DNA of 64,000 bases from Haloarcula marina (GTDB lineage Archaea > Halobacteriota > Halobacteria > Halobacteriales > Haloarculaceae), in assembly GCF_024218775.1 (NCBI RefSeq), contig NZ_CP100404.1:186001-250000 (forward strand). Reading direction: 5' to 3'. Positions 33,764 to 47,217 of this stretch are shown here, piece by piece (the stretch's first letter is position 1; each line of letters starts with the position of its first letter). A model generated the notes under the pieces. It made no database searches. It was not told where the DNA came from and saw only the letters and a list, made by a program, of their open reading frames with translations. The position numbers and the translations under genes are program-made.

Positions 33764-33779
33764 TTGGACGAACGATTCC
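33764..33779 (+). promoter_or_regulatory. Candidate nitrogen-regulon palindrome, hemL/nasA-1 spacer
   Basis: TTGGACGAACGATTCC matches the left half and centre of the proposed site TTGGACG-WW-CGTCCAA (11 of 16). It sits in the divergent spacer, 65 bases before hemL and about 145 before nasA-1. Inferred. Confidence 0.4.
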
Positions 33780-33924
33780 AGATATTCGTGAAAGATACAC
33801 TTTCGTCAAGAGATAGGGTTTTGTATTGGCTATCCATTCGATAAAGTAGAGATATGGTAGCCGAACGTACTTGTTTGACCCCATTCACTCCGCGGACGTG
33901 CGCCACGCGGGCGCGTGGTTCGGC

Positions 33925-35994
33925 GTGAGCGACTGGGTCCCGACGACGTGCATGCGGTGTGCCGTCGGGTGCGGACACATGCATCGGGCCGCGGACATCG
34001 GATACGGCATCGACACGGTACGCGGCGACGCTGCCCATCCCGTCAATCAGGGCCTCGCCTGCGCTCGCGGTATCGGAGAGAGCCGCGACCCCGACGGCCA
34101 GTGGCTCACCCGGCCGATGGTCCGGGACGAGGGCGAGTTGCGACAGACCACGTGGGACGTGGCGCTCGCCCGCGCCGTGGAGGGCCTGCGGGAGGCCCAC
34201 GACAGGGACCCGGATTCGGTCGCAATCCTCGGGAGCGGCCAGCAGACGAACGAGGCGGCCTACGCCCTCGGCAAGGTCGCCCGCGGCGGGTTCGGGACGC
34301 GACTGTACGACGCCAACACCACGCTGTGCATGGCCTCGGCCGTCACCGCGTACTATCAGGCCTTCGGGAGCGACGCGCCGCCCTGTACGTACGCCGACAT
34401 CGACGACGCCGAGCGACACGTCGTCTGGGGGGCCAACCCCGCCGTGGCCCACCCGGTCATGTTCCGCTGGATTCGACAGGGCGCCGACGAAGACGGCGTC
34501 GAACTGCTGACGGTCGACCCCATCCGCTCGGAGACGGCCGAGAACAGCGACCACCACGTCGCGCCCGACCCGGGCAAAGACCTCGCGTTGGCGCGGGCTA
34601 TCCTCGCCCGACTGGTCGAGACGGACCGCGTCGACGACGAGTTCGTCGAGGAGTACACCGACGGCTTCGACGAGTTGCTGACGACCCTCCCCAGCGCCGC
34701 GGCGGCGGCCGCCGACGCGGGCGTCGAGATGGCCGACGTGGACCTGCTGGCCGACGCGATGGACCGCCACGCCCTGCTGTACTGGGGCATGGGCATCAAC
34801 CAACACGTGCAGGGGACCGAGACGGCCCGCGCGCTGGTCGACCTGACGCTCGCCTCGGGGAACCTCCGGCCCGGCGGCGGTCCGTTCTCGCTGACCGGGC
34901 AGGCCAACTCGATGGGCACTCGCATCTGCTCCTCGAAGGGGTCGTGGCCCGGTCAGCGGGCCTTCGAGGACCCGAACCACCGCCGGACCGTCGCCAACGC
35001 GTGGGACGTGCCGGTCGACCGCCTCCCAAACGACCCCGGTCCCGGCCCCGTCGGGATGCTCGAAGCGGCACCCGACGCCGTCTGGACCGTCGCCACCAAC
35101 CCCGTCGCGGGGATGCCCGACGCCGACAGCGCCCGCGAGTCGCTGGAGGACGCCTTCCTCGTCGCCCAGGACGCCTTCCACACCGAGACGACGGCACTGG
35201 CCGACGTGGTCCTGCCCGCGGCGACGTGGGGGGAGTCTTCGGGCACGACGACGAACATGGAGCGGACCATCTCGCGGGTCCGGGCCGCAACCGACGTTCC
35301 CAGCGGCGTCCGACCGGACATCGACATCATCGCCACCGTCGGGTCGCGCCTGTTCCCGGGCCTCTTCGAGAGCACGTCGCCGGACCCCGAGACGGTGTTC
35401 GAGGAGTTCGCGGCGCTCACCGAGGGAACGGTGGCCGACTGCTCGGGCATCACCTACGACCGACTGGAGGACGCCCACGCGGTCCGGTGGCCCGCGCCCG
35501 ACGAGGAGAGCGCTGGCGGCTATCGGTACTACGACGGAGGCGAGGAGGAGTCGTGGTCCTTCCCCACTGCCTCCGGAAACGCGCAGTTCTCGACGGGCCA
35601 GCAGGGGTCGCTCCCGGAACCGACCGACGAGGAGTATCCGCTGACCCTCACGACCGCCCGGGAGGCCGACGGCTACAACACCGGCGTCCGCTCCCGGGGC
35701 GGCACGGCGGGTGACCTCGTCGCCCGCATCCACCCCGAGACGGTCGATGCCCACGCCGACCACGTCGCGGAGGACCGCCTCACCGTCACCTCTCGACGCG
35801 GGAGCGCGACGGTCCGTATCGACCGCGACGAGGGCGTCCCCCGCGGGATGGTGTGGCTTCCGATTCACCACCCGGCGACCAACCGCCTCACGCTCTCCGA
35901 GCGTGACCCCCAGTCGAAGGAACCGCACTTCAAGCAGTGTGCGGTGTGTCTCGTCGCACCCGACATCGAAGTGTCACCGGCGGCGGCCGACTGA
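33925..35994 (+). CDS. nasA: Assimilatory nitrate reductase NasA, copy 1
   Basis: 689 residues from GTG 33925 ([17 protein letters not shown]). This start aligns exactly with the ATG of the second copy, so I prefer it to the TTG at 33871. Fe-S cluster cysteines C9, C12, C16 and C46; likely Mo-ligand Cys in NTTLCMAS (C135). Molybdopterin domains: [30 protein letters not shown], and the C-terminal molydop-binding domain ([17 protein letters not shown]). Takes nitrate to nitrite in the cytoplasm, with electrons probably from ferredoxin. It has no transporter neighbour of its own. Confidence 0.9.
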
Positions 35995-36131
35995 GTCGGT
36001 ATCTCGGCGAGCGGTCGTTTTCGGCTAGCGACCACTGCAGTAGCCGAGCGATATGCGTGCGAACTGAGCGCGCGTATCTCACAAACGAGTTCGGATAAAT
36101 CGAAAAAAGACGTGTTTCTCAGCGGTCCGGG

Positions 36132-36380
36132 TTATTCGCCCTGTTCGACTTCGTAGATTTCGTCTGCGGTGAGGCCGTGGGCTTCACGGTGGACTTTCTC
36201 ACCCGCTTCTTTGCTGGGGCCTTCGAATAGGCAGAAGACGGCACCCGCGTCATCGTCGACCCAGTAGTTCAGATACTTTACACCGTGTTTCTCTTGGGCT
36301 TCGAGGTCTTTCTTGTGAGCTTCGACGACTTCCGCTACACTCGCGTCGACGTCTCTGTGAACGTCCATGTACAGTGGCAT
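36132..36380 (-). CDS. DUF4242 (SCO4226-type nickel-binding-like) protein
   Basis: 82 residues from MPLYMDVHRDVDASVAEVVEAHKKD. The pattern MPLYMDVH-x-V, QEKHGVKYLNYWVDDDAGAVFCLFEGPSKEA and VHREAHGLTADEIYEV fits DUF4242, small ferredoxin-like proteins of which one binds nickel; His/Cys residues for a metal site are present. It stands between the two nasA copies and is visibly lower in GC, with more Lys codons, than its neighbours, a possible sign of transfer. TATA-like GTATAATTA at about 36429 fits this start with a short leader. Confidence 0.8.
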   Translation of the reverse strand: MPLYMDVHRDVDASVAEVVEAHKKDLEAQEKHGVKYLNYWVDDDAGAVFCLFEGPSKEAGEKVHREAHGLTADEIYEVEQGE

Positions 36381-36729
36381 TGCTACTGATAGTACGATGT
36401 CATGACTCATTAGGATGTGTTGTTGATAATTATACATTTGGCACCCATGTGTGGGTTATTTACCACCCCTCTTGGTGAATGGCTCCGGCTACCTGGTGTG
36501 AACGAAGCGCCTGCTACACTGTGCCTCTGGGTGAGCAACGCGAACGCGGTTTCTCCGGACTCGCCGATCACGAGTCCGGCGTTTCGTTCACGGTGGGTCG
36601 CGCAAAGCTCTACCGCAGTGTGGAAACTGCCCTGCGAACTCCATGCACATCAGAAATCTGCCACCTCTGACGACGTTTTCCGAGGCCTGATCAGCGAGCG
36701 AAGCGAGCCGACCCGACGAGGGTGGGTGG
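36381..36729. other. 349-base spacer between DUF4242 and nasA-2 genes
   Basis: Contains the DUF4242 promoter (TATA-like about 36425-36433), a perfect 9-bp inverted repeat at 36555-36579 and a GCGAGCGAAGCGAGC motif near 36694-36709. Base composition is less GC-rich than coding neighbours at its left end. No gene or RNA recognised. Confidence 0.55.
36555..36579. repeat. Perfect 9-bp inverted repeat
   Basis: CCGGACTCG - 7-base loop - CGAGTCCGG. Free-standing in the spacer downstream of nasA-2. Confidence 0.8.
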
Positions 36730-38844
36730 TCAGTCGTCGCCGTACGTCCCCGTTCGCGGCAGGCCGCTGTGGGTCACGGTCGTCGAGGTATCGGGGGACG
36801 CCAACCGGACGGCGCACTGCTTGTAGTTCGGTTCCCGCGATTCGGGGTCGACCGCGGGCAGGGTCAGTTCGTTGACCGCGGGGTTGTGTACGTCCATCCA
36901 GACGGCGTCCTTCGGGATGCTGTCGTCCGGCGCGAGGTCGACAGTCACCCGCGCCCGCCGGGATTCGACGAGGGTGCGACCGCGGTCCAGCAGGTCGATG
37001 TACTGCCCGGCAGTTTCGGGGTGGATGCGGGCCGTCGGGACGCCGTCGTTCTCCTCGCGAGACCGGACCCCGGTGTTGTAGGCTTCGGCGCGGCGGCCGG
37101 TCGTCAGCATGAGGGGGTAGGCGGCGTCGGTCGGTTCCGGCACGCCGTCGAACGTCGCGGGGGTGAACTGTGCCCTGCCCGACTCGGTGGGGAACGACCA
37201 GGACTCCGACTCGTCGTCGGCATCGTAGTACCGGTAGCCGCCCTGGGTCGACTCGTCGGGGGCGGGCCACCGGACGGCCAGTTCCGAGTCGAGGCGGTCG
37301 TAGGTGATGCCCGAGCAGTCCGCCGGGGTTCCCTCGGTGAGCGCGCGGATTTCCTCGAACACGGGTTCGGGTTCGAGCGTCGGTTCCGGAAACAGCGAGT
37401 CGTCGATGCGGTTGCCGACGGCGGCGATGATGTCGATGTCCTGTCGGACGGCGTCGACGGTGTCGCTCACGGCGGTCACTCGGGAGACGGTCCGCTCCAT
37501 GTTCATCGTCGTGCCGTCGGTTTCGCCCCACGTCGCCGCGGGCAGGACCACGTCGGCGTGTTCGACCGTCTCCGAGCGGAAGGCGTCCTGGGCGACGAGG
37601 AAGATGTCGTCGAGCGAGCGCTTGACGTTGCTCGCGTCGGGCATCCCGGCGACGGGGTTGGTGGCGACGGTCCAGCAGATGTCGATGTTGCCACGGTTCA
37701 TCTGGTCGACGATACCGACCGGGCCGGGTCCCGAGGAGTCGGGGAGGCGACTGAGCGGCACGTCCCACATCTCGGCGACGGTCTCTCGGTGTTCCTTCTC
37801 CGTGAACGGGCGGTGGCCCGGCCACGTGTCCTTCGAGGAGACGACGCGGGCACCCATCGAGTTGGCCTGTCCGGTCAGCGAGAACGGGCCGCTCCCCGGC
37901 CGCAGGTTACCCGTCGCGAGACAGAGGTTGACGAGCGTTCGCGCGGCGTCCGTGCCGTTGGTGCTCTGGTTGACGCCCATCCCCCAGTACAGCAGCGTCG
38001 GGTCCGCGAACGCGTCGGCCAGCGCCTCGACCGTCTCGAAGGCGACGCCAGCGGTGTCGGCGGCGCGTTTCGGGTCGGGGAGCGAGTCGACTACCTCGTC
38101 GAAGCCGTCGGTGTACTCCTCGACGAACGCCCGGTCGACGCGGCCGGTGGCGACGACGTGGGCGAGCACCGCTCGCGCGAGTTCGAGGTCGGTTCCGGGG
38201 TCGAGTCGGACCACCTCGTCGGCGTCGGCGGCCGTCTCGCTCTCGACGGGGTCGACGACGATGAGACGACTGTCGTCGTCGCTGGCACTGTCCAGAATCC
38301 AGCGGTACAGCACGGGATGGGCCGCCGCCGGGTTCGCGCCCCAGACGACGTGGGTCTGCGCCTCGGGGATGTCATCGTAGGTCGGCGGCGGCGCGTCGCT
38401 GCCGAAGGCGTCGTAGTACGCTCGCACCGCCGAGGCCATGCACAGCGTCGTGTTAGCGTCGAAGTGCTTCGTGCCGATGCCGCCGCGGGCAAGTTTGCCG
38501 AGGGCGTAGGCCGCCTCGTTCGTCTGTTGGCCGCTCCCGAGGACGGCGACCGAATCCGGGTCGTCGGCGATGGCCTGGATGAACTCCGTGGCGACGAGAC
38601 CCAGCGCCGTCGCCCACGAGGTCGGTCTGAGGGTGTCGCCGCGTCGGACCAGCGGTTCGGTGAGCCATTCGCCTCGGGGGTTCTCCGTCTCTCTGATGCC
38701 CCGTTCGCAGGCGAGGCCCTTCGACGTCGGGTGGTTGTAGTTCCCTCGAACCTTGTCGACGCCGTACCCCTCGTCGACGCCGCGCTGGTGTTGTCCACAG
38801 CCGACGGCACACCGCATACACGTGGTAGGTTTCCAGTAAGTCAT
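36730..38844 (-). CDS. nasA: Assimilatory nitrate reductase NasA, copy 2
   Basis: 704 residues from [17 protein letters not shown]; Fe-S cysteines C9, C12, C16 and C46 with the same spacing as copy 1, NTTLCMAS Mo-ligand region, YWGMGVNQSTNGTD, and VRSREENDG in the C-terminal cofactor domain. It lacks the extra 2Fe-2S tail of some bacterial NasA. It is divergent from narK-mobA across a 570-base regulatory region, whereas in classical haloarchaeal nas operons nasA is co-directional with narK. Clearly paralogous to copy 1 but diverged throughout, so not a recent copy. Confidence 0.93.
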   Translation of the reverse strand: MTYWKPTTCMRCAVGCGQHQRGVDEGYGVDKVRGNYNHPTSKGLACERGIRETENPRGEWLTEPLVRRGDTLRPTSWATALGLVATEFIQAIADDPDSVAVLGSGQQTNEAAYALGKLARGGIGTKHFDANTTLCMASAVRAYYDAFGSDAPPPTYDDIPEAQTHVVWGANPAAAHPVLYRWILDSASDDDSRLIVVDPVESETAADADEVVRLDPGTDLELARAVLAHVVATGRVDRAFVEEYTDGFDEVVDSLPDPKRAADTAGVAFETVEALADAFADPTLLYWGMGVNQSTNGTDAARTLVNLCLATGNLRPGSGPFSLTGQANSMGARVVSSKDTWPGHRPFTEKEHRETVAEMWDVPLSRLPDSSGPGPVGIVDQMNRGNIDICWTVATNPVAGMPDASNVKRSLDDIFLVAQDAFRSETVEHADVVLPAATWGETDGTTMNMERTVSRVTAVSDTVDAVRQDIDIIAAVGNRIDDSLFPEPTLEPEPVFEEIRALTEGTPADCSGITYDRLDSELAVRWPAPDESTQGGYRYYDADDESESWSFPTESGRAQFTPATFDGVPEPTDAAYPLMLTTGRRAEAYNTGVRSREENDGVPTARIHPETAGQYIDLLDRGRTLVESRRARVTVDLAPDDSIPKDAVWMDVHNPAVNELTLPAVDPESREPNYKQCAVRLASPDTSTTVTHSGLPRTGTYGDD

Positions 38845-38902
38845 CTGTTCAGCCGGTTCCTCGCGGCCGGGTGACGGCCGAACGGGTTGTCGTAACGGTT
38901 AT

Positions 38903-38918
38903 TTTGACGTTCGTACAT
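38903..38918 (+). promoter_or_regulatory. Candidate nitrogen-regulon palindrome, nasA-2 promoter
   Basis: TTTGACGTTCGTACAT, 13 of 16 positions agreeing with the proposed site. It is 59 bases upstream of the nasA-2 ATG and lies between, or overlaps, two TATA-like candidates on the minus strand (ATTATGTAC and AAAATAACC). Confidence 0.5.
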
Positions 38919-39016
38919 AATTCTGCCCACGCTGTCTGGTCTTGTTTCAGACACGCGCAGCATCCTCGCCGATATGTTTGCGATATTATCGTACGACTTA
39001 GCGAATAACGCTTTCG

Positions 39017-39032
39017 TTGGACGAAAATATCA
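39017..39032 (+). promoter_or_regulatory. Weak candidate nitrogen palindrome, nasA-2/narK spacer
   Basis: TTGGACGAAAATATCA: left half perfect, right half poor (11 of 16). Confidence 0.3.
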
Positions 39033-39088
39033 GTACCGCAAGGAGAGAGTACAACGTCGAATGCGGTCGGAATATGCCCGAAAATGGG

Positions 39089-39097
39089 TATTTAAGG
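39089..39097 (+). promoter_or_regulatory. Strong TATA box without an annotated gene
   Basis: TATTTAAGG, close to the haloarchaeal consensus, centred 28 bases before GTG 39121. It could start a leaderless micro-ORF, a small RNA, or a long leader for narK. Confidence 0.5.
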
Positions 39098-39120
39098 CAC
39101 TGTACCCAGTATATTCGGGG

Positions 39121-39186
39121 GTGTCACGCTCCCCCCGCCGCACCGACCGGTTGACGATTGCACAGCTAGTTCGGCTTCTTTGTTGA
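39121..39186 (+). CDS. Possible leaderless 21-residue peptide
   Basis: GTG frame VSRSPRRTDRLTIAQLVRLLC ending TGA, placed exactly where the TATA box at 39089-39097 would put the transcript start. It begins next to a GGGGG/CCCCC hairpin (about 39116-39140). The peptide is basic, against the acidic trend, so it may instead be the 5' end of a small RNA or untranslated leader. Speculative. Confidence 0.25.
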   Translation: MSRSPRRTDRLTIAQLVRLLC

Positions 39187-39414
39187 TGTTGCGAAAAAAC
39201 GCTCCTGGGGTGGCGGCGGAATCGGGGCTATTGTTCGGATGTGCGTATTGGCTTCGAAAGTTACGATTTTGTAAACGGGTAGGGTTATTATCTCGTGTTC
39301 GTTACGATATTCCGAATCAATGTGTTCGAACGTAGTGTTGAAGCGAAGTAAAGTTCATGAAGTACAATCAGATGTGGTCGGCCGTGGCCGTCTGACCACC
39401 TCGGAGGTGTGCCG

Positions 39415-40737
39415 ATGGGACTGATCAAGATGACGAAGTACCGGACCCTGCTGCTCGCGACTATCGGGTTCAACTTCTCTTTCCTCATCTGGTTCTCGTT
39501 CGCACCGTTCACCGGACCCATGTCGGAGGAGTTCGGCCTGTCGACGGCGGAAATCGGTATCCTCGCGAGTTCGGCCATCTGGATGGCCCCGTTCGGCCGG
39601 ATGCTGACCGGGTGGCTCTCCGATAAGTTCGGCGCGCCGACCATCTTCGCCATCGTCCTCGGGTACGTCGGGGTGTTCTCGATGGCCAGCGCGTTCGTTC
39701 AGGACTACTCGCTGTTCTTCGTGACCCGCCTCATCGTCGCGACGGCGGGCATCACGTTCGTCATCGGCATCCAGCACGTCGCCGAGTGGTGGGAAGAGGA
39801 GAACCTCGGCCTCGCCGAGGGCATCTACGCCGGTGTCGGCAACGCCGGGGCGGCGGGCGGCGCGCTTATCCTCCCCCGCGTGTTCGGCACCGGATGGAAC
39901 GGCCCGCTGTTCTCGACGAACTGGCGCGCGGCCTTCTTCTACACCGGCGTCGTCTCCATCTTCCTCGCCATCGCGTACTACACGCTGGGTGAGGCCGCAA
40001 AGAGCGAGGAGAAGCGACAGGCCACCGCAGACAACGCGAGCTTCAAGGACTGGATATACACGGCCACCCGCTACGGGACCGTCGTCCTCGCGCTCGCCTA
40101 CATCATGTCGTTCGGCCTCGAACTGTCCATGAACGGGTGGCTCGCCACCTACTACCGCGAAGCGTTCAATCAGGACAACCTCGTCATCGCGAGCACGTTC
40201 GCGGCGACGTTCTCCGTCGCGGCCGGTCTGCTCCGCCCCATCGGCGGCTACATGAGTGACGTGCTGGCCCGCAAGGAGAAGAACATCCTGCCCGTGTTCC
40301 ACGGCCGCTACCGCGAACAGTGGACGTTCGTCTCGCTGTGTTTCATCGTCGTGATGATGCTGTGCATGACGCTCGCCGGACTCTCGGGCGTCGTGATGAA
40401 CGCCGTCATCGTCGGCTTCCTCGTCGGCACGGCGTGTGCCTTCGCCGAGGGGGCAATCTTCGCGCAGGTCCCGGCGATGTTCCCCAACAGCTCCGGGGCC
40501 GTGGCGGGCGTCGTCGGCGGTATCGGCACCGTCGGCGGCATCGTCTACCCGCTCATCTACTCCGCGCCGTGGCTGTCCAGCCTCCACATCGGGTACTCCA
40601 TCGTCGCCGCGTCGATGGTCCCCATCGTCCTGCTGGCGGCGTGGGTGTTCCAGCCGGGCATCGCGAGCGTCGCCAACACGGAGGGCTTCATCGGCGACAG
40701 CCGCGAAGCGCCCGCGGCCTCGTCCGGGGACGACTGA
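39415..40737 (+). CDS. narK: NarK/NasB nitrate(-nitrite) transporter
   Basis: 440 residues, twelve transmembrane segments, MFS. Nitrate-porter signatures [16 protein letters not shown] (about residues 136-151) and [15 protein letters not shown] in the second half, plus the conserved [18 protein letters not shown] motif. ATG 39415 is chosen because GGAGGTG lies seven bases upstream (39402-39408); a GTG at 39409 falls on it. Imports nitrate for NasA. Its stop overlaps the mobA start (TGATG). Confidence 0.93.
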
Positions 40738-41321
40738 TGCGCTCGGCGGTCGTTCTCGCGGGCGGATACTCGACCCGCTTCGGCGAACCAGATAAGGCGA
40801 CGGCGACCCTCGACGACGAACCGATGATTCGACACGTCGTCGGCGGCATCGCCGACGCCGTCGACGAGGTGGTCGTCAACTGCCGCGACGACCAGCGGGC
40901 GGACATCGCCGAGGCCCTGTCGGGCCTCGACGCACGGTTCGCGTTCGACCCCGTCCCCGACGGCGGGCCGGTGGCCGGTATCCGAACCGGCTGTCGGGTC
41001 GCCCGCGGCCGGTGGACGTTCGTCACGCCGTGTGACACGCCGTTCGTCTCGGCGACGCTCGCCGACCGACTGTTCGAGGCCGCCGAGGACGACGGCGCGG
41101 TACCGTTCGTCGGCGGCCGCGAACGCCCGCTCTCGGCCGTCTACGATACGGAAGCGGCCATTCAGGCCTGCGACACGACGCTCGGCCTCGGTTCGCGAGC
41201 CGTGACGGATTTCGTCGAGCGGCTCTCGCCGGTCACCGTCTCGGACCCCGCTCCGGCGCGCGCGTTCGAGGACCTCGACACGCACGCTGCGCTGCAGGCC
41301 GCGAGCGAGCGCTCGACCTGA
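40737..41321 (+). CDS. mobA: Molybdenum cofactor guanylyltransferase MobA-like
   Basis: 194 residues from [21 protein letters not shown], the nucleotidyltransferase signature (LAGGxSxRxGxxKA). DPVPDGGPVAGIRTGC and VTPCDTPF complete the GTP and Mg sites. It adds GMP to molybdopterin to give the bis-MGD needed by NasA; the one-base overlap with narK (TGATG) supports that role. Same gene order, narK-mobA, as known haloarchaeal nas operons. Confidence 0.9.
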   Translation: MRSAVVLAGGYSTRFGEPDKATATLDDEPMIRHVVGGIADAVDEVVVNCRDDQRADIAEALSGLDARFAFDPVPDGGPVAGIRTGCRVARGRWTFVTPCDTPFVSATLADRLFEAAEDDGAVPFVGGRERPLSAVYDTEAAIQACDTTLGLGSRAVTDFVERLSPVTVSDPAPARAFEDLDTHAALQAASERST

Positions 41322-41401
41322 ACGGCCGATACACCCTCTCTTCTTTCTATTCTCGACGTATATCGGTGGCTCGGTCAGCGCCGCCGCCGGTTCTGGACGC
41401 T

Positions 41402-41415
41402 CGTTCGCCCGAACG
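41402..41415. promoter_or_regulatory. Perfect CGTTCG-CC-CGAACG palindrome upstream of nirA
   Basis: Six-base arms and two-base spacer, eight bases before the candidate nitrogen site. It could be a second operator or part of a composite one. Inferred. Confidence 0.4.
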
Positions 41416-41422
41416 GGGTGAA

Positions 41423-41438
41423 TATGACGTTCGTCAAA
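41423..41438 (+). promoter_or_regulatory. Candidate nitrogen-regulon palindrome, nirA upstream (distal)
   Basis: TATGACGTTCGTCAAA, 13 of 16 positions of the proposed site; the central ten bases GACGTTCGTC match fully. Confidence 0.5.
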
Positions 41439-41563
41439 CTCGCCCGGTTCAGACCTCGCCCGCGAGACCGTTCTTGACAGCTGTCCGCCCGAACAGCCAT
41501 TATGGCTATTTTGTCAAGGGTCAGGGTTTTAGAGTCCCAAATACAACGCAAATACGTGAATTA

Positions 41564-41579
41564 CCGGACGTTCGACGAC
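41564..41579 (+). promoter_or_regulatory. Candidate nitrogen-regulon palindrome, nirA proximal
   Basis: CCGGACGTTCGACGAC, 11 of 16 positions, about 50 bases before the nirA ATG. Confidence 0.4.
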
Positions 41580-41628
41580 ATATGAAAGAGAAAACTAAAC
41601 GAACTTTCGTACGCCGAGGGAACTGATT

Positions 41629-43395
41629 ATGGCACACAAGAAAGAGGACGTCAAAGCGGAACTGTACGGCGACGAGGTGCGAGAGAAACTGGAGGAGTTC
41701 GCCGAAGAGGGCTGGGAGTCTATCCCCGAAGACGAGCGTGACGCGTGGTTCTCGCGGTTCAAGTTCTGGGGCGTGTTCCACCACCGCGGCGGGCAGGAGT
41801 CGTATTTCATGATGCGCCTGACCAACTGCGGGGGGATTCTGGAACCCGAACAGCTCCGAGCCATCGGCGAGGTGGCCCGCGACTACGCGAAAGGACCGGC
41901 GGAGAATCCCGAGTTCGGCAACGGCTGGGTCGACTTCACGACCCGCCAGTCCATCCAACTCCACTGGCTGAAACTGGAAGATATCCCGGAAATCTGGGAG
42001 AAACTGGAGGCCGTCGGCGTCTCCTCGCGCTCTGCGGGCGGCGACACGATGCGGAACATCTCGGGCTGTCCGGTCGCGGGCAAGGCCGAGGAGTACGTCG
42101 AGTCCCGTCCCATTCTGGACGAGATTCAGGAGACCATCCGCGGCGATAACGACCTCTCGAACATGCCCCGGAAGTTCAATATCTCGGTCTCGGGGTGCCG
42201 ACAGGGGTGCGCGCAGGACGCCATCAACGACATCGGTCTCGAACCCGCTCACAAGTTCATCGACGGGACGGATGTCGAGGGGTTCAACGTCCGCGTCGGC
42301 GGCGGCCTCGGTGGCCGCCAACCGCGCGAGGCGCGTCCGCTGGACCTGTTCGTCCGGCCGGAACACGCCGTCGAGACGGTCCGCGCGTTCGTCGAGTTCT
42401 ACCACGAGGAAGGGAACCGGCAGAACCGCTCGAAGAACCGCGCGCGCTTCTTCGTCGACGACCTCGGAACCGACGCCATCCGCGAGGAACTGGACGAACG
42501 GCTGGATTTCGAGTTCGAGACCGCCGGGACGGACTTCCGCGGGGAGTACACCTACAACGCGGGTAAGCCCGCCGACCGCGGCGCGCACGACCACGTCGGC
42601 GTCTACGACCAACGCGACGGGCAGAACTACGTCGGCCTGTCGGTTCCGGTGGGGCGAATCGTCGCCGAGGAAGCGATCGAACTTGCGGACCTCGCCGACG
42701 AGTACGGCTCCGGCGAGGTGCGACTCACGCGCCGACAGAATCCGCTCATCATGGACGTTCCGGACGAGAAACTCGACGACCTGCTCGCGGAACCGCTACT
42801 GACGAAACTCTCGCCGGACCCGAACCCGTTCGTACAGGGCGCGATGGCCTGCACCGGGACGGAGTTCTGTTCGCTCGCGCTCACCGAGACGAAAGCGCGG
42901 ATGGCCCGACTGCTCCGATGGCTGGGCGACAACGTCGACGTGCCCGACGACGTGGACCGCATCAAGATGCACTTTTCGGGCTGTACGGCCGACTGCGGGC
43001 AGGCGATGACCGCCGACATCGGCTTACAGGGCATGCGCGCCCGCAAAGACGGCGAGATGGTCGAGGCGATGGACGTGGGCGTCGGCGGCGGCATGGGCGA
43101 AGACCCCTCGTTCATCGAATGGGTCCGGCAGCGCGTGCCCGCCGACGAAGTGCCGGGGATGATCGCCAACATGGTCGAGGCCTACGCCGCCCTCCGCGAG
43201 GAGGGACAGACCTTCGGCGAGTGGGTCGACGCCACCGGTCACGAGACCATCGTGGAACTGGCCGAACCCGAGGAGGTCGTCGGGTACGAAGACCCGTGTC
43301 TCACCGACGGCAAGCAGTCGTGGTACCCCTTCGACGACGGGGAGAGCCCCGCGCCGACCGACGCCAGCGGCGAACCGCTCTCGGCGGACGACTGA
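41629..43395 (+). CDS. nirA: Ferredoxin-nitrite reductase NirA (siroheme, Fe-S)
   Basis: 588 residues. Reduces nitrite to ammonium with six electrons. Two NIR/SIR repeats; siroheme/4Fe-4S ligands C408 and C414 (CTGTEFC) and C452 and C456 (CTADC). Also FTTRQSIQLHWL and SGCRQGCAQD in the first half. Lacks NADH and FAD domains, so ferredoxin is the likely donor. Separated from mobA by a 307-base promoter region, hence probably its own transcript. Siroheme links it to hemL and hemB in the same region. Confidence 0.95.
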   Translation: MAHKKEDVKAELYGDEVREKLEEFAEEGWESIPEDERDAWFSRFKFWGVFHHRGGQESYFMMRLTNCGGILEPEQLRAIGEVARDYAKGPAENPEFGNGWVDFTTRQSIQLHWLKLEDIPEIWEKLEAVGVSSRSAGGDTMRNISGCPVAGKAEEYVESRPILDEIQETIRGDNDLSNMPRKFNISVSGCRQGCAQDAINDIGLEPAHKFIDGTDVEGFNVRVGGGLGGRQPREARPLDLFVRPEHAVETVRAFVEFYHEEGNRQNRSKNRARFFVDDLGTDAIREELDERLDFEFETAGTDFRGEYTYNAGKPADRGAHDHVGVYDQRDGQNYVGLSVPVGRIVAEEAIELADLADEYGSGEVRLTRRQNPLIMDVPDEKLDDLLAEPLLTKLSPDPNPFVQGAMACTGTEFCSLALTETKARMARLLRWLGDNVDVPDDVDRIKMHFSGCTADCGQAMTADIGLQGMRARKDGEMVEAMDVGVGGGMGEDPSFIEWVRQRVPADEVPGMIANMVEAYAALREEGQTFGEWVDATGHETIVELAEPEEVVGYEDPCLTDGKQSWYPFDDGESPAPTDASGEPLSADD

Positions 43396-43397
43396 CC

Positions 43398-43505
43398 ATG
43401 CCCGAAACGAACGAACCCCGGACGCCGACCGACTCGCGGCCCGAATCGGTGGCCGACCGACCGCAGGAGGTGGCCTACGACGTCGCACCGGAACTCATCG
43501 ACTAA
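43398..43505 (+). CDS. Very small acidic ORF behind nirA
   Basis: 35 residues (MPETNEPRTPTDSRPESVA then RPQEVAYDVAPELID) starting two bases after the nirA stop. Acidic, Pro-rich and mostly unstructured, with codon use like the neighbours. It may be a coupled small protein of the nirA transcript or a chance frame. Confidence 0.4.
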   Translation: MPETNEPRTPTDSRPESVADRPQEVAYDVAPELID

Positions 43506-43626
43506 CGCGGGCCTCGCCCGCTGACGCGGCCGCCGACGCCGAACTGTCGGCACTCCGACGGCACACGCTCGTGTCAACCCGTGCTGTCGGCTCATTCTCC
43601 GGATTCTTCGCGCCCAGCGGCGGCGC

Positions 43627-44268
43627 TCACACCACGTCGCCCGCTTCCGTGTCCGCGGCCACGTCCGTCTCGAGGTCGATGTGCTGGATGAGTTCGACCA
43701 GCGATTCCAGTTCCGGGAACGTGTAGACGGTCATTCCGAGGTCGTCGTCCTCGACGACGATTTTCGAGTCGATGACGAAGACGAGTTCCGAGTCGGGCCA
43801 CCCGCCCATCTTGTCGACGATGCCGCTCGCGGGGCCGAGGACGAAGTTCGGCGTGCCCATGTCGATGGTCGTATCGAGGACGTTCGCCCACCCGTCGATG
43901 AACCCGCTGGTCATGATGTTCCCGATTTCCTGCATGGCCGACCGCTCCATGTCCGAAAAGCCCGCGCCGTCACCGCCGTCGCCCATCCCGCCCAGCATCG
44001 CCCCCGCCAGCCGTTTGCTGTCGGCGGGGTCGAGCATGAACAGGACGTAGCCGTACGGCGGTTCGGTCAGTTCGACGTAGATGCCGACCTGTCGGTCGGT
44101 GCCGATGTGTGTCTTCACGTCGTCGATGTCGAGAAAGTTGATTTGCGAGGTGTGGACGCGGGCGTCTAATCCGGTCAACTGCCCGAGGTGGTCCGCGACG
44201 GTCCCCGACCCCTCTTTGGCCATCTGGTTGAAGAGGTCGAGTTTCCGCACGTCGACTTGCAGGCCCAT
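43627..44268 (-). CDS. cheC: Chemotaxis phosphatase CheC
   Basis: 213 residues from MGLQVDVRKLDLFNQMAKEGS. A CheC-type domain: the second phosphatase helix SAMQEIGNIMTSGFIDGWANVL (E-x2-N) is intact, the first (MAKEGSGTVADHLGQLTG) is degenerate. It removes phosphate from CheY and, in bacteria, binds CheD. No other che gene is next to it. It lies between the nirA and ammonium-transport genes, and a chemotaxis transducer follows amtB, so nitrogen and taxis genes are interleaved here. Confidence 0.88.
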   Translation of the reverse strand: MGLQVDVRKLDLFNQMAKEGSGTVADHLGQLTGLDARVHTSQINFLDIDDVKTHIGTDRQVGIYVELTEPPYGYVLFMLDPADSKRLAGAMLGGMGDGGDGAGFSDMERSAMQEIGNIMTSGFIDGWANVLDTTIDMGTPNFVLGPASGIVDKMGGWPDSELVFVIDSKIVVEDDDLGMTVYTFPELESLVELIQHIDLETDVAADTEAGDVV

Positions 44269-44346
44269 ACCCGTTCGAACGGTGCGAGGGGCTTAACGCC
44301 ACCGCACACCGCAGTCGTTTCAGGCCCCCTCCGCCCCGAACGCGGC

Positions 44347-44808
44347 TCACTCGCCCTCGCTTTCGGGGACGTACGGGCCGAGGTCGTAGCAGTTGTTCGC
44401 GGGGTACTCCGTGCAGTCGTCGGCCACGTCGCGGGTGATGTCGACGAAGTCGTAGCGCCGGGACTCGGTCTGTTCGGCGGCCGGAAGCCCCTCGACGACG
44501 GGAACCGGGCGGATGGACTGATGGTCGCTCTCGCGCATGGTCTCGCTGCCCACCCCCATCGTGTAGGTCGCTCCCTCTAACTGCTTGAGAACGTCCGGGG
44601 GGTAGAACGTTCCCGCACGCGCGACGGCGGCGGCGTACTGGAGGGTCTGCCCGTAGGCCAGTTGGGCTTGGTCGGAGGGGAGCGCGCCGTACTGGGCGCG
44701 ATAGCTCGCGACGAGGCTGTTCGACAGCGGCGTGTCGATGCTCTGGTCCCACGCGATGGTACCGACGACGCCCGCGACGGCCGACGCCGTCGCTAAACGG
44801 CAGTTCGA
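44347..44808 (-). pseudogene. Remnant of a branched-chain-type ABC solute-binding protein
   Basis: Translating the minus strand in the frame of the stop at 44347 gives an open stretch up to a stop at 44809-44811 without a usable start codon near its 5' end. It reads like the C-terminal third of a LivK/UrtA-type periplasmic binding protein: GTIAWDQSIDTPLSNSLV, SYRAQYGALPSDQAQLAYG, then DVLKQLEGATYTMGVGSETMRESDHQSIRPVPVV and a Cys-containing tail. The short frame from ATG 44559 is only the last part. The rest of the gene and its permeases are absent. Confidence 0.7.
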
Positions 44809-44859
44809 CTACTCGGTGAACTGTAGCGCGAAAATGATACCCCGGCTTCCGGGGGCGTC

Positions 44860-45318
44860 TTACTCCTCCGCGTCGCCGACCGGGAACTGTTCGTGTTCCC
44901 GGACGGTGTTCAACACGATGGAGGTCGACGCCGTCCGAACGTCGGGGTCGGTCAGGATGTCCTTGATACGCGCGTTCATCTCGTTCGTATCGCGGAACTT
45001 TCCGACGGCGATGATGTCGTGGCTCCCCGTCACCTCGTAGACGGCGACCATGTTCTGCTGGTCGCTGAGACGCTCGGTCACGTCCACGAGGCCGCCTCCC
45101 TCGACCGAGAGTTGGAAGACGGCGGTGACGTCGTATCCCAACTCCGCGTAGTCGATGCGGGGCGTGTACTCCTGGATGATTCCGGCCTCGGCCAGTTGGT
45201 CCATCCGCCGGGACACCGTCGTCGCGGCGACGCCGGTTTCGGCGGCGATATCACGGGCGCTCGCCCGGCCATCCCGGAGCAACGCGTTCACGACCTGCTT
45301 GTCTATCTCGTCGACCAT
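44860..45318 (-). CDS. Lrp/AsnC-family transcriptional regulator
   Basis: 152 residues from MVDEIDKQVVNALLRDGRASARDIAAETGVAATTVSRRMDQL, an AsnC-type winged helix, then a RAM ligand domain (VTAVFQLSV..., EVTGSHDIIAVGKFRD). It starts 11 bases after the glnK stop on the same strand, so it is likely the third gene of an amtB-glnK-lrp transcript and would respond to amino acids or nitrogen state. It is the nearest candidate to bind the palindromes found in this region. Inferred. Confidence 0.88.
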   Translation of the reverse strand: MVDEIDKQVVNALLRDGRASARDIAAETGVAATTVSRRMDQLAEAGIIQEYTPRIDYAELGYDVTAVFQLSVEGGGLVDVTERLSDQQNMVAVYEVTGSHDIIAVGKFRDTNEMNARIKDILTDPDVRTASTSIVLNTVREHEQFPVGDAEE

Positions 45319-45329
45319 CGGCGGGCCGC

Positions 45330-45686
45330 TCAGACGGCCTCTGGTCCTCGCTTGCCGGTGCGGACCTGGTAGGCGTCATCGACCGGCAGGACGAATATCT
45401 TGCCGTCGCCCTTCTCGCCGGTGTGGGCGCCTTCCGCGATGGCTTCGACCACGTCGTCGGCGGGGATGTCCGCGACGACTGTCTCGACTTTGACCTTCTG
45501 GTGGAGGTCGACGACGTACTCTTCACCGCGCCACTGGCCCTTCTTCGCGGGCTGTGAGCCACGGCCCGAGACGTTGGTGACTGTCAGCGAGGGCGCGCCG
45601 ACTTCCGCCAGCGCCTGCTTCACGTCTCCGAGTTTATCTGGGCGAACCATTGCCACGACCATCTTGATGTCAGTGTCTTCAGTCAT
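45330..45686 (-). CDS. glnK: PII signalling protein GlnK
   Basis: 118 residues of PII fold. It binds ATP/ADP and 2-oxoglutarate and plugs AmtB. B-loop [11 protein letters not shown] (about residues 87-97) is intact. In the T-loop, WRGEEYVVD stands where bacterial GlnB has the uridylylated Tyr of YRGAEY, so the Tyr51 equivalent is Trp and uridylylation at this site is excluded. It overlaps the amtB end by eight bases. N-terminal extension MTEDTD before the usual first strand. Confidence 0.95.
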
Positions 45687-46965
45687 CTTTGGAACCTCCG
45701 TCAGTACGGATGTTTTCGCTCGTCATACCACCGTCGGCGACAACGCTGTCGCCGAACTCGGGGTAGGTCTCGACGCCGTGTTCGCTGACGTCCAGCCCTT
45801 CCTGTTCGTGTTCGGGGGTGACCCGAGCCTGTCCCATCGCTTTCAGCACGCCCCAGACCGCGGCGGTCGCGATGACGGTCCACGCGCCGATTGCGACCAC
45901 ACCGATGACCTGTGCGACGAAGGCGTTAACGACGGAGTCGACGACGCCGGGTGCGGCGACGAAGGGGTACAGGAGCGTACCCAGCACGCCCGCGCTCCCG
46001 TGAACCGGGAAGACCGCACAGACGTCGTCGATTTTCAGCGTCTTCTCGACGAAGCCGAAGACGAGCGGGAGCTGGATGCCAGCGAGGCCGCCGACCACGA
46101 ACGCGCCCCACCACGAGGTGGTGTGCGGGATGGCGGTGATGCCGACGAGGCCAGCGAGCAGGCCGTTGGCGACGTACAGCGTGTCGACTTTGCCAGTGCG
46201 CATCCACGCGACGAGACCGGCGCCCATGGCACCGCAGGCCATCGCGATGGTCGTCGTCATGGCGACGCGCCCGAGTTGGTCACCGAGGAAGCCCTCGCCG
46301 ATGATGGCGGAGGTACCGACGTTGAAGCCGTACCAGCCGAATGCGAGGATGAGCGTCCCCAGCACGGCGAAGGTCAGCGAGTGACCGGGGATGACGTTGA
46401 CGCTGCCGTCCTCGTTGTACCGACCCATGCGCGGGCCGAGGACGTAGGCAGCCGTGAGACCGGCGATGCCGCCCATGCCGTGGACGATCATGCCGCCAGC
46501 GAAGTCAGTGAACCCGGCGCCGCCGAAGCTGATGTACGCGCCAGCCCACGTGATACCGGTGACGACCGGGTAGATGACGGCCGCCAGCAGGAACGTGTAG
46601 ATGACGTACGCACGGAGTTTCGCGCGACCGGCCACCGCCCCGGAGACGATGGTCGCGGCGGTCATCGCGAAGACGGCCCCGTAGAGCCAGTCGATCCAGC
46701 CCGTACCGCTCGTCATGAAGGCGGCCGAGAAGCCGCCACCCCCGACGAGCGAGGAGACGCCCGCCCCGATGAGGAAGAACACGGTCACCCCGACGGACCA
46801 CGTCAGGAGGTTCTTCGTCAGTTGGTTCGCGACGTTCTTCGAGCGCACCTGCCCCGCTTCGAGCATCGCGAAGCCAGCGTGCATGAAGAAGATGAGGAAC
46901 GATACGACCAGTACCCAGGTGTAGTTGAGCGCGTCCGCGCTAACTTGGAGTGGTGCTAATACCAT
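45679..46965 (-). CDS. amtB: Ammonium transporter Amt
   Basis: 428 residues, eleven transmembrane segments. The pore histidines are in [13 protein letters not shown] and [14 protein letters not shown]; the signature DFAGGMIVH is complete. A hydrophilic C-terminal tail (about residues 385-428) interacts with GlnK in homologues. First gene of the amtB-glnK-lrp unit. The start lies 27 bases from the edge of a candidate palindrome and a GATAAAG TATA-like sequence (about 47009-47015). Confidence 0.95.
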
Positions 46966-46991
46966 GATTTGTGTTGTGTTGAGTTTCTATC

Positions 46992-47007
46992 GCGGTTGAA
47001 CGTCCAA
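46992..47007 (+). promoter_or_regulatory. Candidate nitrogen-regulon palindrome, amtB promoter
   Basis: GCGGTTGAACGTCCAA, right half perfect, 12 of 16. It lies between the TATA-like GATAAAG and the expected start of amtB transcription, a position that suits a repressor. Confidence 0.45.
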
Positions 47008-47114
47008 CTTTATCGGCGCGAGTGCCAAGTTCGTCAACCCGTTCACGGAGAAATCTCTGGCAACACCAGTACATAAGGATTTGCTTTATGAAATCTCATA
47101 TTGGGGGGAGTAAG

Positions 47115-47130
47115 GCAGACGAACGTCCAA
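47115..47130 (+). promoter_or_regulatory. Candidate nitrogen-regulon palindrome, amtB upstream (middle)
   Basis: GCAGACGAACGTCCAA, right half perfect, 13 of 16 positions. Confidence 0.5.
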
Positions 47131-47201
47131 ATTAGGGTATGATATTATGGATATAAGGTTGTTCTCCGTCCAGAAAGCATGTATGTGTGCGTTAGGATTT
47201 T

Positions 47202-47217
47202 GGACGAACGTCAACCG
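47202..47217 (+). promoter_or_regulatory. Candidate nitrogen-regulon palindrome, best copy
   Basis: TTGGACGAACGTCAAC, 14 of 16 positions of the proposed site. It is 202 bases before the transducer ATG and 237 bases before amtB on the other strand. Confidence 0.5.

Follow-up and report, generated by a model that had tools for sequence, protein, structure and literature searches.

A palindrome shared by haloarchaeal nitrogen-assimilation promoters as a predicted operator, probably of a glnA-linked Lrp/AsnC regulator

The window, that is the whole 64-kb stretch of DNA analysed, carries a nitrogen-assimilation cluster in the order hemL, nasA1, (nasA2), narK, nirA, cheC, lrp, glnK, amtB and a chemotaxis-like transducer (Table 1). 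Synteny extends to 13 further species of the genus and, in part, to other genera. The relatives recovered with NirA point to Haloarcula or a close relative as the source of the window. Most congeneric species lack the nasA2 paralog in their cluster; L041, L042 and L052 have it at 78-79% identity. The start of nasA1 is probably the ATG at 33856, the start region being conserved across species, rather than the TTG at 33871.

Table 1. Genes and predicted promoter elements (window coordinates unless marked otherwise; bits are matrix scores).
Feature	Position	Strand	Remarks
Degenerate copy before nasA1	33764-33779		11/16; aligned relatives better, GGTGGACGTACGTCACGG / AGTGGACGGATGTCACAT
Weak palindrome over nasA1 nas box	33794-33811		PWM 7.8 bits
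nasA1 nas box	33805-33822	+	GTCAAGAGATAGGGTTTT; one of 3 genome matches
nasA1	33856-35994		Regulated nitrate gene
nasA2	36730-38844		Regulated nitrate gene
Palindrome adjoining nasA2 core promoter	38902-38919	-	15.9 bits, other-species matrix
Copy upstream of narK	39149-39166	+	10.1 bits; TTGACGATT.CACA common to L041, L042, L052
narK nas box	39271-39288	+	GTAAACGGGTAGGGTTAT; one of 3 genome matches
narK	39409-40737		Regulated nitrate gene
Two copies upstream of nirA	41392-41409, 41422-41439		9.2 and 11.2 bits
Third nirA copy	41472-41489		TCTTGACAGCTGTCCGCC; 11.1 bits; genus relatives TTCTGGACGGCCGTT; absent from the initial annotation
nirA nas box	41513-41530	+	GTCAAGGGTCAGGGTTTT; one of 3 genome matches
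nirA copy downstream of nas box	41563-41580		10.7 bits; GCGGAC[AG]TTC kept by almost every aligned species
nirA (nitrite reductase)	41629-43395	+	Regulated nitrate gene
Operon Lrp/AsnC gene	44860-45318		After glnK; PF13404 and PF01037
glnK	45330-45686		After amtB; ortholog search
amtB (ammonium transporter)	45679-46965	-	Ortholog search
amtB site C	46991-47008	-	Between TATA-like box and amtB start; A-to-C spacing 206-208 bp across families
amtB TATA-like box	47070-47077	-	CTTATGTA; 53-54 bp past site B in 21/21 aligned family members
amtB site B	47114-47131	-	14.4 bits
Second TATA-like element	47149-47158		GGATATAAGG; between sites A and B; invariant in genus
amtB site A'	47157-47174	-	Midway A to B (42 bp and 43 bp away, respectively)
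amtB site A	47199-47216	-	17.5 bits, other-species matrix; best intergenic site found in genome
glnA|lrp site	L002:1421-1547 (genome C1:304794)		Short spacer; lrp divergent from glnA

The initial annotation described eight imperfect copies of a palindrome (about TTGGACG-WW-CGTCCAA) in the nas, nir and amtB spacers, and all eight are present with 11-14 of 16 positions matching. Seven begin exactly where they had been placed, while the best copy, TTGGACGAACGTCAAC (14/16), begins at 47200 instead of 47202. The remaining copies match at 11 (33764, 39017, and 41564), 12 (46992) or 13 positions (38903, 41423, and 47115), and all four matches of at least 13/16 within the window fall in nitrogen spacers. 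The copy at 39017 is not conserved; the nirA copies at 41392-41439 are aligned in three relatives of equal cluster layout. Across the 3.74-Mb genome the palindrome occurs with up to three mismatches at 33 places compared with 8 for the reversed pattern, and most of these matches lie in coding DNA, as had been cautioned. The best six genome matches are all intergenic, four being in the spacers already named; of the other two, one lies in glnA|lrp and the second occupies an unrelated spacer. The copy in the unrelated spacer (L003:1501-1516, genome C1:3235002; two mismatches) follows an aldehyde dehydrogenase gene, with no evident nitrogen gene nearby. A strict form of the 16-mer allowing one mismatch gave 25 matches in 243 genomes but showed no order-wide enrichment at nitrogen genes: comparison with 14 proteins, most from the nitrogen cluster, placed only one match near an amtB and a single other one close to a gene resembling the transducer. 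The consensus must therefore not serve as an exact word.

A search for the motif restricted to spacers, of the kind proposed with the initial annotation, recovered it without a seed. Palindromic expectation maximization (EM) on spacers from several haloarchaeal genera gave TgGACGatCGTCcA as the top 14-bp motif, and at 16-20 bp this motif was the best apart from AT-rich or TATA-like ones. The procedure worked only with a spacer-trained background, the first two runs having been swamped by CG codon periodicity and AT-rich promoter DNA, and training restricted to nas/nir spacers converged on AT-rich DNA. In 20 syntenic loci from other species, 17 of 20 matches of at least 13/16 were located in nitrogen spacers, which make up 7.6% of the bases; 179 permuted palindromes of equal composition with CG kept averaged 0.47. 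Scanning used as background an 868-kb sample of the host genome (about a quarter of the chromosome) together with whole-genome pattern searches. With a matrix built from other species, five intergenic matches of at least 14 bits were found in the 868 kb, four of them lying in nitrogen spacers, among these glnA|lrp, a spacer absent from the training set; L002 and L003 entered the sample through a pattern match, the window sites being independent of that choice. The density likewise exceeds that of unrelated spacers, with 14 of 59 intergenic matches at 9 bits lying within about 1.6 kb of 132 kb.

The promoters of relatives are homologous, such that prediction from one promoter to another is the stricter test. 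A matrix derived only from the amtB promoters of other species found six nas/nir sites compared with 0.32 expected (P 1e-6), and ranked nasA2 third and glnA|lrp fourth in the 868-kb sample. A second amtB gene (amtB2; L110:9700-10057, genome C1:1547.7 kb) has a 12.1-bit site, not significant alone. The amtB2 spacer is full of degenerate half-sites (TTGGACG, TGTCCA). Conservation upstream of orthologous genes holds at amtB and lrp across families; of the nirA, nasA and narK promoters of distant species, only about a third pass P 0.05. Upstream of Haloferax nasA no good palindrome was found, only a nas-box-like stretch, TTAAACGATTAGG. Six Haloferax species (L181, L184, L186, L199, L207, and L209) have a near-perfect palindrome, AGTGGAYRATTGCCCACT, 12-29 bp before nirA. 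Taken together, the cross-species conservation, the cross-promoter prediction, the glnA|lrp and probable amtB2 sites and the enrichment over unrelated spacers support the original proposal of a nitrogen regulon with the palindrome as its operator.

The palindrome is 16-18 bp long with an AT centre and is present in three to four copies each at amtB and nirA. Across 21 members of the host family, sites A and B are exactly 85 bp apart and sites A and A' 42 bp apart, and in nine further haloarchaeal families the outer sites lie 206-208 bp apart around a conserved TATA, with TTATAT or TTATGT at the TATA-like position in most of them. The inner site in these other families is at +84/85 or at +113-115, the latter version ending beside the BRE. 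The 207-bp separation bin held 15 site pairs among 40 genomes drawn from these nine families, compared with a maximum of 3 in shuffled promoters, and over 38 promoters the per-position information was 0.75 bit in site A and 0.63 in site C compared with 0.14-0.45 between them. The distances of 42, 85, 113-115, and 206-208 bp are fixed, and most of them come close to integral turns only with an assumed helical repeat of about 10.3-10.35 bp. In several genomes (L229, L249, and L250) the amtB sites are weak or absent. At the second TATA-like element the order-wide amtB consensus has a CCTTA-type element. This second element may belong to an alternative promoter or to a divergent one.

The chemotaxis-like transducer, which shares the spacer with amtB, had also been placed in the regulon. 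The amtB-promoter distances are, however, fixed in genera and families that have no adjoining transducer, and in 12 species the 200 bp before the transducer contain no conserved site. As the array of sites follows amtB with or without a transducer neighbour, membership of the transducer is unsupported and the shared spacer is no evidence of shared control.

The gene for a Lrp/AsnC protein divergent from glnA provides a further place at which the palindrome is positioned with precision. The motif, [TC]TGGA[CT][AG]TTCGTAAA or a close variant, overlaps the lrp core promoter at -46 to -48 from the ATG in 60/60 loci (30 from the host family and 30 from other families). The lrp promoter is probably leaderless with its BRE overlapped by the motif, a configuration in keeping with likely autoregulation through the site in its own promoter. 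An orthologue of this Lrp is present in 112/116 genomes of the family and 40/40 genomes of the order. The protein carries PF01037 and an AsnC-type HTH, with the helix region SVTT[VI]SNHL nearly invariant, and the closest solved structure is 8q90 (E 8.5e-75).

A second promoter-proximal element, the nas box GTMAASRNNNAGGGTTWT, was overlooked in the initial annotation and is found before nasA1, narK and nirA. A slightly looser form matches only these three places in the whole genome, while in 116 genomes of the family it gave 17 matches comprising 13 nas/nir promoters, one glnA promoter (L315) and three unrelated places. The core, AACGRNTAGGGTTWTA, had 13 matches in 243 haloarchaeal genomes and all were upstream of nirA (11), narK (1) or nasA (1), with none found at amtB. 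The nas box is thus far more specific than the palindrome. It looks like a half-site abutting the BRE and TATA. The confinement of the core to nasA, narK and nirA could be taken to indicate two overlapping systems, with the palindrome answering to a general nitrogen regulator and AACGRNTAGGGTTWTA to a distinct, nitrate-specific activator. Such a division deserves consideration but is on the unlikely side, in that the nas-box half GTMAACG is similar to the palindrome's right half, the amtB promoter of other families carries GTCAACGCTAACCCTTATAT at the matching place and the L315 glnA promoter fits the looser box.

The palindrome is probably the operator of a haloarchaeal nitrogen-assimilation regulon, with the most likely binder being the glnA-divergent Lrp/AsnC protein, the orthologue of Halobacterium OE3923F/Trh4 and Haloferax HFX_0246. 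In Haloferax mediterranei, pull-down followed by mass spectrometry identified HFX_0246, encoded beside glutamine synthetase, on the nasABC promoter (PMC8143581), and altering five bases within one part of this promoter rendered expression on nitrate practically undetectable (PMC8143581). The primer for the start of HFX_0246 encodes MTYE (PMC8229911) and the Lrp proteins of the examined loci start likewise. Indirectly, the pull-down converges with the motif evidence for Lrp as the binder, while the Haloferax authors suggested a different, AT-rich Lrp site (PMC8143581). In Halobacterium, Lrp activates glnA (PMC2894021). Alternatively, the operator would be real but bound by another protein, such as the second Lrp of the amtB-glnK-lrp operon in the host family or another HTH protein. 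The operon-linked Lrp adjoins glnK in the loci of the host family, and Lrp paralogs are numerous in haloarchaea, their motifs being similar (PMC4236453). However, in other families the roughly 1.4 kb following glnK showed no Lrp gene, the amtB sites and their spacing nevertheless being kept, and it was the glnA-neighbour Lrp that the Haloferax pull-down identified (PMC8143581), making a different binder rather improbable.

It is very improbable that the conservation stems from constraints on the core promoter or 5′ leader instead of an operator. The lrp site does overlap the BRE/TATA and site C is located between the TATA and the start codon, but sites A and B lie far upstream of the TATA and the palindrome recurs in unrelated promoters at differing positions. 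Chance, for which the commonness of GACGTTCGTC-like words in GC-rich coding DNA and the coding location of most three-mismatch matches would speak, is refuted by the permuted controls, the cross-species matches and the fixed spacing, and can be discounted.

With the glnA-divergent Lrp as the preferred binder, a mechanism can be proposed in which Lrp dimers would occupy each pair of half-sites and Lrp multimers would bridge the spaced amtB sites across the TATA box, sites A and C being some 20 helical turns apart. Archaeal Lrp sites are known to form clusters two or three turns apart with a dimer just upstream of the BRE (PMC2995911). At the nas promoters a BRE-adjacent Lrp dimer may recruit TBP/TFB under nitrogen shortage, with Lrp binding answering to glutamine or a similar nitrogen signal and Lrp presumably controlling its own promoter. 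The looping, TBP recruitment and glutamine response are inferred from known archaeal Lrp proteins (PMC2995911). More tentatively, and with some doubt, these features may reflect an ancient general nitrogen control shared by haloarchaea, in which a single glutamine-linked Lrp would form a higher-order complex of fixed geometry spanning some 225 bp at amtB, its sites flanking the TATA box on the upstream and downstream sides, and in which the nas box would be the BRE-adjacent version at nitrate genes. If true, this fixed-geometry Lrp system would represent the archaeal equivalent of Ntr, distinguished by a promoter architecture of its own.

Several known systems bear comparison. Ptr2, an Lrp-family activator of Methanocaldococcus, has the consensus GGACGATTTTCGTCC with the same GGACG half-site as the palindrome, the half-sites being 5 bp apart as opposed to 2 bp here. 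Both have in common a dimer site just upstream of the BRE and TBP recruitment (PMC2995911), proposed in the present case. The targets of Ptr2 are ferredoxin and rubredoxin genes, unlike the nitrogen genes described here. The NrpR regulon of methanogens, likewise archaeal, places glnK-amtB and glnA under a promoter palindrome, with the operator being GGAA-N6-TTCC. NrpR was rejected as the regulator here, its domain PF01995 being present in 0/21 haloarchaeal genomes though found in two control methanogens. The haloarchaeal denitrification motif CGAAYATDKTYG (NarO) is also a semi-palindrome upstream of haloarchaeal nitrogen genes (PMC10062603), but differs in sequence and in gene set (respiratory nar, nir, nor, and nos), showing no agreement with the de novo motif GACG-AT-CGTC. 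Similarly, AAAGACTAART of Haloferax volcanii is a proposed Lrp-type motif responding to nitrogen source (PMC6801745), but is AT-rich, of another sequence and associated with a transport and amino-acid cluster on pHV4. Likeness to the haloarchaeal Lrp proteins OE3923F/Trh4 and HFX_0246 lies in their location beside glnA, activation of glnA in Halobacterium and pull-down on nasABC in Haloferax (PMC2894021, PMC8143581), although the GACG-WW-CGTC operator, the fixed amtB geometry and the nas box were not found in the literature examined. For haloarchaea the regulator of glnK-amtB and nitrate assimilation is stated to be unknown or is only suggested (PMC3831643, PMC8143581). To this the present analysis adds exact predicted operators, promoter geometry at the base-pair level across families and a promoter box at nitrate genes that is nearly free of background; with a named candidate protein whose binding to one target promoter is published, the question of the regulator becomes directly testable in Haloarcula or Haloferax.
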